DNA of 46,933 nt, taken from NCBI GenBank assembly GCA_001794055.1, contig MGJB01000002.1:1-46933 (forward strand), given 5' to 3'. This document shows, one piece after another, positions 12,607 to 23,994 of this stretch. The notes under the pieces are model-generated. The model was not told the origin of the DNA. It ran no database searches and was given only the letters and a program-made list of their open reading frames with translations. Numbering within the stretch: position 1 is the stretch's first letter; every line of letters starts with the position of its first letter. Position numbers and translations under genes: made by a program. The DNA comes from Candidatus Yanofskybacteria bacterium RIFCSPHIGHO2_01_FULL_41_26. GTDB lineage: Bacteria; Patescibacteriota; Minisyncoccia; 2-02-FULL-40-12; GWA2-44-9.

Positions 12607-12901
12607 CGCGGGGTAGAGCAGCGGCAGCTCGTCAGGCTCATAAGAAATTGTGACCTATCATAGAAATGTGGTATGGAAAAACTTTCGAAATTGCCGGAAA
12701 CCCGATTGTCTTGCAAAAGACGTAGGGCAATCAGCAGCGAAATCTTTTGATAAACAAAAGAGACGTTCAGAGACTATAATGGAAGCATCCCTCCCCAGTT
12801 TTCCCAAACTGGGGAGGGATGATGGGATAGTCCGACACTGTCAGTAATGGCAGCAAACAGCCAGAACCTGAAGGTCGTGGGTTCGAATCCCACCCCCGCA
12901 A
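12607..12901 (+). tRNA. Initiator tRNA-fMet (CAT), interrupted by group I intron (12642-12864)
   Basis: Exons CGCGGGGTAGAGCAGCGGCAGCTCGTCAGGCTCAT + AACCTGAAGGTCGTGGGTTCGAATCCCACCCCCGCAA; C1:A72 mismatch of initiator tRNA; close to E. coli tRNA-fMet. Confidence 0.94.
12642..12864 (+). other. Group I intron (about 223 nt, no ORF)
   Basis: R-like GTTCAGAGACTATA (about 12765-12777) and S-like GATAGTCC (12826-12833) pair as P7; 5' exon ...TCAT pairs with GTGA in the IGS with U.G at the splice site; intron ends in G; GGGCAATCAGCAGCGAAATC resembles the P/Q region; perfect 16-bp P8-like hairpin CATCCCTCCCCAGTTT-TCCC-AAACTGGGGAGGGATG. Confidence 0.9.
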
Positions 12902-19837: not shown

Positions 19838-21214
19838 ATGGCAGACGATAATAACACTACAAAAAATATGGATATAAATGATTTGGTCAGGGAATTAAGC
19901 AAGAGTCCTACAAGTCCAGTGCCCCCTTCGCCTTCTCCTGCGCCTCAAGCGCCGAGGCCGGCTTTTCCTTCTCCTCCTCCTCCGATTACTCCTTTCCAAC
20001 CAAAACCATCGGAAATGCCTCGACCCCAGTTTAATGCTCCTCCTCGACAGTTTGACAAACCCATGCCTACCGACAAACAGGCAATTCAGCCAAAACCAGC
20101 TCCAACAGCCCCAACTCCAACCATGCCTACTCCTGCTGTCCCCCTTCCGACTCCAGGGGTCAAAGAATATCAGTCATCCATAAGAACGATGAATGAAGAT
20201 ATTTCCAGACTTAAACAAGGCCAAAAACCGACGGGAATCGACGTTCCAAGAAAGGTTGAACAGGTTGTTCCTGCTCCGGTGACACCTTCTCCAACTAAAC
20301 CAGTGATACCGAGTCCACAATTAAAAGTTCCAAGCGTAAATCTTGGTGAAACACAAAAAACCGGGCCCATAGCTCAATCAAAAGATGTTTCTAAGCCGCC
20401 CGCAATTCCGAAAGTAGAGCCGAAACCTCAAATTTATATTCCTCAAGAAGGCCAAAAAGGCGGCAACAGAAATATGCTTTTTATCGGAATTGGCGCCGCG
20501 GCCATAGTGGCGGGATTTTCGTATTGGTTCTTTGTTTTAAGATTGCCGGCCTCTGATTTTATAGTTGAATTACCCACTCCTGTTCCGACAGCTATGACAA
20601 CTCCGACTCCTGTTTTGAGCGATATTTTTGCAAATTTAGAAAACCAAACGGTCTGTACCTCTGAATGCACTCCAAGTTCTTTTTTTGAAGATATTAATGA
20701 GCAACCGATTAGCGGAGGGCAATTCAAGTTTCTTTATTTTAGTGAAAACAACACATTGCGAACGATTGCTCAGTTGTTTGATGATTTCAAATTGGTTTAC
20801 CCGGGTAGCCTGAAAGGCTTATTAGGAGAAGATCGTGGAATATTTGTTTATGGTCAGAAGGAAATATTTGACCAAAAAGGCCTGATTAGAACCGATTCCA
20901 TAGTTGAAAAACGCTTGGTACTTATTAATGAAGCAACAGACTCCATCGCAGTTTCTCAACTGTTGAAAGAATGGGAAACAGATATGCCGAATAATTTAAG
21001 AGAAATATTTTTACTTGAATTAAAGAGGCAGACGAGCCAAGCTTTTTCTGATAATTTTTATCGAGGGGTCAGTATAAGATATCAAAATTTTGCATATTCA
21101 GACAAAAGCATAGATTATGCGGTTGTCGCTGCTCCTAATGGCAAATCATATTTGGTTATAGCCGGTTCAAGAGAAGCTATGTACGCAACAATAGATAAAC
21201 TCCTAGGCTTTTAA
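19838..21214 (+). CDS. Hypothetical Pro-rich protein with single TM and C-terminal extracellular domain
   Basis: 458 aa; long Pro/Ala-rich N-term, TM MLFIGIGAAAIVAGFSYWFFVL. Confidence 0.85.
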   Translation: MADDNNTTKNMDINDLVRELSKSPTSPVPPSPSPAPQAPRPAFPSPPPPITPFQPKPSEMPRPQFNAPPRQFDKPMPTDKQAIQPKPAPTAPTPTMPTPAVPLPTPGVKEYQSSIRTMNEDISRLKQGQKPTGIDVPRKVEQVVPAPVTPSPTKPVIPSPQLKVPSVNLGETQKTGPIAQSKDVSKPPAIPKVEPKPQIYIPQEGQKGGNRNMLFIGIGAAAIVAGFSYWFFVLRLPASDFIVELPTPVPTAMTTPTPVLSDIFANLENQTVCTSECTPSSFFEDINEQPISGGQFKFLYFSENNTLRTIAQLFDDFKLVYPGSLKGLLGEDRGIFVYGQKEIFDQKGLIRTDSIVEKRLVLINEATDSIAVSQLLKEWETDMPNNLREIFLLELKRQTSQAFSDNFYRGVSIRYQNFAYSDKSIDYAVVAAPNGKSYLVIAGSREAMYATIDKLLGF

Positions 21215-21217
21215 TGG

Positions 21218-21401
21218 GGTGACACATTGTGTATAACCTGTTGTCACTATCAAGCAATGTCACCAATAACCACTTGTCCAAGCAAGTGGTTATTGAATCA
21301 TTTTACTTATTTAAAGCCAATTTTTCATGGTGACATGGTGACATTATCACCATGTCACCATGGTGTCACCTTATCCACAGTTTTGCTATTGCAATGTCAC
21401 C
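21218..21401. promoter_or_regulatory. Operator-like array of TGTCACC/GGTGACA sites with DnaA-box-like TTATCCACA (21371-21379)
   Basis: Sites at 21218, 21242 (TGTCACT), 21258, 21329, 21337, 21353, 21364, 21395; also hairpin CAATAACCACTTG...CAAGTGGTTATTG. Confidence 0.7.
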
Positions 21402-21417
21402 ATCGACTTTATATAAT
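21389..21417 (+). promoter_or_regulatory. Sigma70-like promoter overlapping the array
   Basis: TTGCAA (21389-21394), 17-nt spacer starting with TGTCACC, TATAAT (21412-21417). Confidence 0.65.
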
Positions 21418-21423
21418 TAGTTT

Positions 21424-21540
21424 AGATCTTTGGCTGGTGGTCTGACACACAAGTGGATCATTGGCATTTTTCCTCGCAAGAGGACAGGAGGCGCAGAGCT
21501 CACACTACATATTTTTTAGGAGCGTTCTGCGCCTTTTTTG
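21424..21540 (+). ncRNA. Candidate structured small RNA with intrinsic terminator
   Basis: Downstream of the promoter, no credible ORF, TCCTC-GCAA-GAGGA GNRA-type hairpin, then GGCGCAGAGCTC...GAGCGTTCTGCGCCTTTTTT. Confidence 0.45.
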
Positions 21541-21550
21541 ATTTTTTGTT

Positions 21551-21687
21551 TAATTCTGAATAGGTGACACAACCTCTATGCATGACTGCGGGGTGCACTT
21601 TTTTAAAATATTACTAATTTTAAAAAAGCACACACCCTCCGCCGGTTGCATAGTTGTCAGATGACAACTGGCCATAGAGGTTCAAAC
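21551..21687 (+). repeat. Element A, copy A2
   Basis: GTGACACAACCTCTATGCATGACTGCGGGGTGCACTTTTTTAAAATATTACTAATTTTAAAAAAGCACACACCCTCCGCCGGTTGC...GGCCATAGAGGTTCAAAC. Confidence 0.75.
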
Positions 21688-21822
21688 TTTCACTGATTTT
21701 GGCTCAAAGGGCCGGTTTTATTTTGCAAAAGTTGTCTCAGGTAGAGTTTAGATTCTAGTTGAGGTCAGACACCTCAAGAGCTTACCACTTTCTCGCTCGG
21801 TCGCTCACAAGGCCGGTTTGAC

Positions 21823-21850
21823 TTGACAAAAAGATTGAAAGTATTATAGT
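21823..21850 (+). promoter_or_regulatory. Promoter of 21894 ORF
   Basis: TTGACA (21823-21828), 16 nt, TATAGT (21845-21850). Confidence 0.6.
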
Positions 21851-21893
21851 TATGTAACTTTCGTGCCAAGAGCAAGAGGGTGGGAGGTAGGAA

Positions 21894-22103
21894 ATGAGAG
21901 TCGAGTTCGTGCCGATTGTTGGATTCCTCGTAAGTTTTCATCGCGCGATAAAAATGCAGTCACTACAAAGAAACAGCGTCATTTCAGTATGGGATGGCAG
22001 TGATTATGTTTTTGGTCCGTTTACAATTTCTGCAATCATTTCTTACGGTTTTCTTCAGTTAATTATTGTGATTCTTGCTTTGTGTAAATCATTTTTAGCA
22101 TAA
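21894..22103 (+). CDS. Small hypothetical membrane protein (69 aa)
   Basis: GGGAGG RBS, promoter upstream, terminator downstream; C-terminal TM. Confidence 0.6.
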   Translation: MRVEFVPIVGFLVSFHRAIKMQSLQRNSVISVWDGSDYVFGPFTISAIISYGFLQLIIVILALCKSFLA

Positions 22104-22117
22104 CAATCAAGTTTATT

Positions 22118-22144
22118 TGCCCCATCTCGCTTTGGGGCTTTTTG
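22118..22144 (+). terminator. Terminator
   Basis: GCCCCATCTCGCTTTGGGGCTTTTTG. Confidence 0.7.
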
Positions 22145-22182
22145 TTTTTAGATAAGCCGTTGATCTTACTTTATCAATGGAA

Positions 22183-22285
22183 GTTTGAATCTTTGTTGCC
22201 AATCGTCACCTGTTTACCCAAACAACCGGCGGAGGGAGAGGCTTTTTACAAAATTAGTAAATTTTAAAAGCGAAACCCTAATCCA
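22183..22285 (-). repeat. Element A, divergent copy A3
   Basis: Minus: GGGTTTCGCTTTTAAAATTTACTAATTTTGTAAAAAGCCTCTCCCTCCGCCGGTTG...TTGGCAACAAAGATTCAAAC. Confidence 0.55.
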
Positions 22286-22449
22286 TTAGAGGGACTTATG
22301 GAGTTCGGCAGAACGAGTACGAGGCAAAATTTTAGCAAGAGTTTATGCCGTGCCCGAGAATGGGTTAGGGTTGAGCTTTGCTTTTTAAAACAGAATAGTT
22401 ATTATATTAAACATCATACTAACTATCGCAGGAGGGGCGATGCGCTTTT

Positions 22450-23994
22450 TTGTCCATACGGCTTTTTTCTTCAGCAATCAACGGTATAGATGCCCAGCTC
22501 ATAGAGGTAGAAGTTGACTCAACTCCCGGTATTCATGCTTTTAATATTGTTGGTCTTCCTGACAAGGCAGTCCAAGAATCTAAGGATAGGATTGCCTCGG
22601 CTATCAAAAACAGCTCTTTAGCCGCCCCCAACTCAAAACACAGGAAAATTATCATAAATTTGGCTCCAGCCGACCTCAAAAAAGAAGGACCTTCTTATGA
22701 TTTACCCATTGCCGTCGGTTATCTGATGGAAACTAAGCAAGTCCAGTTCGATTCTTCTCAAAAATTGTTTATCGGGGAGCTTTCTTTAGACGGTTCCCTA
22801 AAGCACACCAATGGCATCTTGGCCACGGCGATTTTGGCGAAAAAGCTGGGTTTTAAAGAGCTGGTAGTCCCCTATTCTAATCTTGCTGAAGCTCAAATAG
22901 TTCAAGGCCTAAATGTTGTCGGAGCCAAGAATGTAAAGGAAGTGTTTGATCATCTTAATAATACACGACCCCTATCTGCCAAATATCTCAAAACTTCTAA
23001 TTTGTCGGAAGAAAAAGATGAGGACTTGCTAATGTCTATAAAAGGCCAAGAAACAGCAAAAAGAGCTTTGATTGTTGCAGCGGCCGGAGCTCATAACATT
23101 CTGATGTCGGGCCCCCCAGGTTCTGGCAAGACACTTTTGGCTAAGGCATTAGCCGAACTGTTACCTAAAATGTCTTTTGAAGAAGCGATTGAAGTGGCTA
23201 AGATATATAGTTCGGTCGGACTCATTAAGAACTCTCCCCTGTCTTTCAAACGGCCATTTAGAAGTCCGCATCACACAACATCTGCTCCGGCAATGGTTGG
23301 CGGAGGTACTTGGCCAAAACCGGGAGAAATAAGTTTAGCCCATCGAGGTGTTTTATTTCTGGACGAGCTTCCTGAATTTCCAAGAAATGTTTTGGAAAGT
23401 TTGCGACAACCACTGGAAGAAGGCACTATCTCTGTTTCTAGGGCCTCAAGCTCGGTTATTTTACCGGCTAACTTCACTTTAGTAGCGGCAATGAATGCCT
23501 GTCCTTGTGGTAATTTTGGTGAAGAGAAGGGGGTCTGTTACTGCTCCCCTATTCAGGTTTTAAATTACAGAAAGAAAGTGTCCGGGCCGTTGCTGGATAG
23601 AATAGATATTCAAATAAACGTTCCGCGCGAAACAATTGGCTCTGTCGATTCGCCCCTAAGCAAGGCTTCGGGGATAAAAGTAGGCGAAATAAAGGGTCAA
23701 ATAAATAAAGCCAAGGAGGTTCAGTTGGCCAGATTCAAGAATACCGGCCTTTTGGCCAATTCCGAGATTGATTACAAAAATATAGATAAATATTGTGTTT
23801 TGGATTCAGGAGCAGAAAATCTGCTTAAACAAGCCATTAATTTTAAAAATCAGTCATTAAGGGCGTATCACAAAACCAAGAAATTGGCCCGCACCATTGC
23901 CGATTTAGACGGTTCGGAGTCAATCAAAGAGCAACATGTGGCTGAAGCGGTAAATCTTCGCATGAATGAGAAGATGTTGAACGAGTTGGCATAG
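22450..23994 (+). CDS. comM: YifB/ComM family Mg-chelatase-like AAA ATPase
   Basis: TTG start after AGGAGG; GIHAFNIVGLPDKAVQESKDRI, GPPGSGKTLLAKAL, FRSPHHTTSAPAMVGGG, CPCGNFG. Confidence 0.95.
   Translation: MSIRLFSSAINGIDAQLIEVEVDSTPGIHAFNIVGLPDKAVQESKDRIASAIKNSSLAAPNSKHRKIIINLAPADLKKEGPSYDLPIAVGYLMETKQVQFDSSQKLFIGELSLDGSLKHTNGILATAILAKKLGFKELVVPYSNLAEAQIVQGLNVVGAKNVKEVFDHLNNTRPLSAKYLKTSNLSEEKDEDLLMSIKGQETAKRALIVAAAGAHNILMSGPPGSGKTLLAKALAELLPKMSFEEAIEVAKIYSSVGLIKNSPLSFKRPFRSPHHTTSAPAMVGGGTWPKPGEISLAHRGVLFLDELPEFPRNVLESLRQPLEEGTISVSRASSSVILPANFTLVAAMNACPCGNFGEEKGVCYCSPIQVLNYRKKVSGPLLDRIDIQINVPRETIGSVDSPLSKASGIKVGEIKGQINKAKEVQLARFKNTGLLANSEIDYKNIDKYCVLDSGAENLLKQAINFKNQSLRAYHKTKKLARTIADLDGSESIKEQHVAEAVNLRMNEKMLNELA

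Follow-up and report, generated by a model that had tools for sequence, protein, structure and literature searches.

Described systems that resemble the locus

Gene regulation is poorly understood in the tiny, uncultured and genome-reduced bacteria that carry the locus. The closest functional analogue of the protein and site arrays considered here is the ParB/omega–parS system of pSM19035, in which the 7-bp repeats of omega overlap promoters and arrays of heptads serve both partition and repression (PMC9499535). Common to both are arrays of 7-bp non-palindromic sites, direct and inverted, which overlap promoters and recur at a number of loci, one of them that of the (here putative) binder. The components nonetheless differ: omega is a ribbon-helix-helix (RHH) protein with contiguous WATCACW heptads and a ParA partner, and is plasmid-borne, whereas here the candidate is a winged helix-turn-helix (wHTH) protein, variable spacers separate the sites, both arrays are chromosomal, a small RNA is the putative target and no ParA linked to them was seen. 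Given that the candidate matches HTH_DeoR and HTH_11 rather than RHH, and that its sites are not contiguous, we do not assign it to the omega/parS family.

Further points of comparison are provided by DnaA and by the DeoR/GlpR regulators. DnaA is known as a transcription factor (reviewed in PMC8203912), and the consensus box TTATCCACA near a promoter is shared with the present locus; the difference is that here a single putative site lies just upstream of the −35, at about two promoters per genome. The DnaA of the genome under study carries the GGRDHSTV signature, as is usual for DnaA. The likeness to DeoR/GlpR lies in the HTH segment of the candidate, which matches PF08220, but this segment is C-terminal rather than N-terminal, there is no sugar-phosphate sensor domain and DeoRC finds no match: membership of the DeoR family was therefore rejected. 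A search of open-licence papers returned no description of the array, the wHTH regulator or the small RNA.

We consider it probable that the array described below (array 1) is a multi-site operator of a lineage-specific wHTH protein, which probably represses a small RNA whose promoter may also be contacted by DnaA. Sequence alone yields a regulator that can be tested, its putative binding word, the two loci that would be its chief targets, and a small RNA that is conserved.

A cluster of 7-bp sites over a conserved promoter

The window, by which we mean the whole stretch of DNA analysed (46,933 nucleotides), is contig C2 of a genome (G000) of 799,807 bases in 18 contigs. Array 1 extends from 21218 to 21401 and contains seven exact copies of TGTCACC/GGTGACA in mixed orientation, starting at 21218(−), 21258(+), 21329(−), 21337(−), 21353(+), 21364(+) and 21395(+). 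These, and an outlying GGTGACA on the minus strand at 21563..21569, just past the terminator of the small RNA, lie where the original prediction had placed them; one-mismatch copies begin at 21242, 21345 and 21362. For most neighbours the start-to-start distance is variable, between 8 and 35 bp.

Clustering of the sites beyond chance, claimed at the outset, was borne out. The window contains 13 copies of TGTCACC/GGTGACA against 2.58 expected, a number reached in 0 of 100 shuffles, and its densest cluster of any 7-mer is that of GGTGACA, with seven copies within 185 bp; in 40 simulated windows the best cluster of any 7-mer held three to five copies and never seven. Genome-wide there are 68 copies, compared to 34 of the reversed word, and these form two clusters only: array 1 and a second (array 2) at C6:126044-126171. 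The objection that the word might be abundant without clustering thus does not hold. Nor does the objection that the array might be absent from relatives: array 1 occupies the corresponding position in those family genomes that were examined, and array 1, the DnaA-box-like element, the promoter and the small RNA are conserved across the family. Array 1 has the layout expected of a multi-site operator, with one site repeated several times over a promoter more densely than chance would allow and retained in relatives, and the original reading of it as such is well supported by the sequence.

A conserved gene of 458 aa, with no Pfam match and no assigned function, lies upstream (19838..21214, plus strand), and in those genomes of the family in which it was found the array comes after it. 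A perfect inverted repeat of 13 bp with a 6-nt loop (21264-21276/21283-21295, plus strand), noted in the original prediction, stands within the array; several relatives have a GC-rich hairpin at the corresponding position, and that of G000 is probably the terminator of the upstream gene.

The promoter consists of a −35 hexamer, TTGCAA (21389..21394), and a −10 hexamer, TATAAT (21412..21417), both on the plus strand and separated by 17 bp. As had been claimed, the last site of the array, a predicted operator site (TGTCACC, 21395..21401, plus strand), abuts the −35 directly and so falls within the spacer. In 16 of 21 family genomes a site likewise overlaps the −35/−10 region, where binding normally blocks polymerase; this, and the consensus TTGACA present in several genomes, speak against the alternative that the same HTH protein, bound to the same operator, activates the small RNA from the upstream array. 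Activation would accord with the location of most sites upstream of the −35, with the weakness of TTGCAA in G000, and with the five genomes (G003, G006, G012, G015 and G018) that lack an overlapping site and in which repression would need a different mode. We regard activation as rather unlikely, and repression through the spacer site as the preferred reading.

Between two sites of the array lies the consensus DnaA box that the original prediction had reported: TTATCCACA, at 21371..21379 on the plus strand, 9 bp upstream of the −35. The order of elements holds throughout the family – array, TTATCCACA, −35, −10 – with TTATCAACA or a near-match in place of TTATCCACA in some genomes, and the gap from box to −35 is 7–10 bp in 18 genomes and zero (the two abutting) in three. 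When ten genomes were scanned for the pattern TTATCCACA-N7-10-TTG-N18-21-TANNNT, each returned between zero and four matches, and the controls none. The matches include the small-RNA promoter in several of the ten genomes; in most of them they also include that of a large exported protein encoded downstream of array 2. We hypothesize that DnaA may act at the small-RNA promoter, a possibility that the original prediction had raised.

A REP-like palindrome (CCTGTGGATAACCGACTTGCGAAGTCGGTTATCCACAGG), whose paired ends are TTATCCACA, supplies many other exact copies of the box in G000. The palindrome flanks an IS200-like Y1 transposase gene (L009:11970-12704 and flanks), which is a REP/RAYT-type arrangement; its positions in G000 are C6:127968 and 128717, together with C1:33953, C1:57831, C6:116699 and C9:23319.

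A small structured RNA

Downstream of the promoter lies a previously undescribed gene for a small structured RNA of ∼116 nt (21424..21539, plus strand; covariance model E 3.8e-23), which we take to be transcribed. It comprises a first hairpin (∼21433-21465) and a terminator hairpin followed by a T-run (∼21486-21537), that is, an intrinsic terminator. Across its two helices 12 of 21 pairs show double compensatory changes, a result obtained in 0 of 500 shuffles and to which no slid control comes close. No Rfam family matched the locus at gathering score, and since a permissive search also gave nothing credible, identity with a known Rfam family was rejected.

Of 45 genomes of the order, 23 give a match to the covariance model, as a rule a single one at the corresponding locus; because the filters were strict, and further members were recognized by eye in groups f3 and f4, absence from this search is weak evidence.

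A second array beside the gene of a winged-HTH protein

Array 2 of G000 is located near a gene (C6:129493-130089, minus strand) that encodes a wHTH protein of 198 aa with the HTH at its C-terminus. In a protein of this type with 205 residues the HTH segment (148–201) matches HTH_DeoR (PF08220) with an E of 3e-7, whereas searches of solved structures and of NCBIfam gave no useful match, NCBIfam scores falling far below the cut-offs. By profile search, proteins of this kind (∼200 aa) are present in 27 of 28 family genomes and in 41 of 45 genomes of the order, the sole family genome without one being 83% complete. The original prediction, which mentioned neither array 2 nor the small RNA, had left the regulator unidentified; the wHTH gene at array 2 can now be named as a candidate. 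Two details of these proteins may be mentioned. A short NVAQ(Y/C/S)-like motif recurs in their otherwise divergent N-terminal half in several families, and the gene of G033 (C1:1172-1784) appears to be split into two overlapping frames, which suggests a frameshift or an assembly error.

The paired word GGTGACA-N0-30-TGTCACC occurs in 26 of 28 family genomes, usually at two loci, compared to 1 of 28 for a reversed control. The exceptions are G006, which has sites at other spacing, and G002, which has another word. In every family genome where it was located, array 2 is found beyond the 3′ end of the HTH gene, at an interval of 10–450 bp in most genomes and of 2–5 kb in seven, G000 included; as the array is not placed at the promoter of the gene, autoregulation does not suggest itself.

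In most genomes array 2 is embedded in a lamin-tail-domain gene, within a linker rich in Ser, Thr, Pro and Val; in G026 and G018 it occupies DNA without a convincing ORF. The array of G000 contains nine words, in several frames and on both strands, and when codons were permuted within the segment nine words were reached in 0 of 20,000 permutations (maximum eight). The DNA word, and not the peptide only, is thus maintained, and a protein linker here bears a regulatory pattern at the level of DNA. The coding arrays of group f4 (G033 and G040) sit in repeat-like coding sequence, and their words could partly reflect the code. Downstream of array 2 is the gene of the large exported protein (∼1,130–1,250 aa, no Pfam match; G000 C6:122750-123293 and equivalents, L114:6961-7576), which has a DnaA-box-type promoter and a leader of ∼500–600 nt.

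Concordant change of the word at two loci

When the 7-mers of the HTH locus were counted blind, GGTGACA ranked first, alone or jointly, in 21 of 25 family genomes. The remainder comprise G022, in which it is second, G006 and G021, with three copies each, and G002, in which GGTGCCA occurs ten times. G002 carries GGTGCCA at both loci (11 copies at the RNA locus, ten at the HTH locus), while in its congeners G017 and G022 the HTH locus retains GGTGACA. TGCGCCA stands at both loci of G040, and in G041 the motif has again changed at both, to GACACCAT / CGACACCAT (GACACCA/CGACACC). A change of motif, then, is seen at both loci wherever it occurs. The cause is unlikely to be copying between the arrays, since the two arrays of a genome share only motif-sized blocks, none longer than 10–21 bp. 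The joint change at unlinked arrays provides a natural experiment on the co-evolution of a DNA-binding protein and its sites.

Absences and more distant relatives also bear on the link. In G028 and G034 the HTH gene, the array and the small RNA are absent together: the gene after the 458-aa one follows it immediately, and no array or RNA lies between the two. The two genomes belong to one genus, so this co-absence counts as one event. Counting against the link, G032 has the RNA locus, and no HTH protein was detected in it. Other relatives of the HTH protein have different words directly 3′ of the gene: TGCGGCC (seven copies) in G195 and GGCGTGA (five) in G103, both from other families of the class, and GGTGCCA (seven) in G038. 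Most of the distant homologues tested, however, showed no array above the simulated maximum.

With sites clustered both at the small RNA and beside the HTH gene, the HTH protein very probably controls the RNA through them. The alternative is that a different, unlinked protein binds the sites and that the HTH gene merely adjoins array 2. Binding by the HTH protein is predicted from sequence, and the residues of the predicted recognition helices do not clearly track the motif: between G002 and G022 there is little difference in these helices, which do not account for the one-base difference of motif. Yet array 2 stays 3′ of the HTH gene while other neighbours change, gene, array and RNA are missing together in G028 and G034, and in further lineages members of this HTH family have different words immediately 3′ of their gene. 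We judge an unlinked binder distinctly unlikely, and retain the wHTH protein as the candidate regulator.

Proposed mechanism

The sequences show the anatomy of the locus and its conservation, the covariation of the RNA and the concordant change of the word; the protein that binds, the sign of regulation and the role of DnaA are what we infer from them, as follows. On the simplest model, the wHTH protein would bind non-palindromic 7-bp sites (TGTCACC in G000) in either orientation. Occupation of the spacer site, with cooperative binding to neighbouring sites, would most likely repress the small RNA, the promoter being closed when the protein is abundant. The DnaA-box-like element upstream of the −35 is probably a second input, positive or linked to the cell cycle, and array 2, in or before the lamin-tail-domain gene and upstream of the exported protein, probably serves feedback or control of the cluster.

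A broader view, tentative and to our minds somewhat doubtful, is of a conserved Patescibacteria circuit. Its HTH protein, fast-evolving and with lineage-specific arrays, would set the levels of the small RNA and of a large exported surface protein jointly with DnaA, which would keep a fixed promoter position, so linking the envelope to the replication cycle, with one array kept inside coding sequence by selection at the level of DNA.

Chromosome organization and replication

By analogy with pSM19035, the heptad arrays of which serve partition as well as repression (PMC9499535), the arrays might instead be centromere-like or organize the chromosome, the HTH protein acting in the manner of ParB or of a nucleoid protein. 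Such a role would be consistent with short sites that are numerous, run in both orientations and are confined to few loci, with the persistence of arrays within coding sequence, and with the proximity of array 1 to a switch in GC skew. The sign of the skew changes at ∼11–12 kb in the window, within ∼10 kb of the array; in the complete relative G012, sampled in stretches of 8–12 kb, the switch falls at 376–390 kb and array 1 at ∼410.6 kb, a distance of 20–34 kb. However, array 2 of G012 (251.5 kb) is ∼130 kb from the switch, G000 encodes a canonical ParA–ParB pair elsewhere (on C15), and the overlap with the promoter is precise and conserved. Chromosomal ParB–parS, with its 16-bp palindrome and linked parAB, was rejected, no canonical parS pattern having been found in the window or at the array 2 locus. 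A centromere-like role is thus very unlikely, and an operator role is preferred.

The suggestion in the original prediction that the array might be iteron-like or mark an origin, in favour of which stand a DnaA box and repeated short sites, proved highly improbable: rather than a cluster of DnaA boxes at the skew switch, array 1 has one exact box, the switch lies elsewhere, the array moves with the promoter and the RNA, and almost every genome has a second array elsewhere, far from the first.

Other features of the window

Between the small RNA and the next gene lie ∼870 bp of intergenic DNA (21571-22440) with nested inverted repeats, in which 21602-21697 pairs with 22173-22269 (∼79% complementary); several relatives have in its stead a short TraR/DksA-like zinc-finger gene. 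The downstream gene (22450..23994, plus strand), which we regard as context and not as part of the unit, is a ComM-like member of the Mg-chelatase family, its closest records being from Candidatus Yanofskybacteria (Patescibacteria, Parcubacteria group), the best at 91% identity. Near the contig end, both on the minus strand, are a 5′ fragment of 16S rRNA (301-828; model positions 9–546) and a group I intron (12630-12854; Rfam RF00028), a combination consistent with an interrupted 16S gene.
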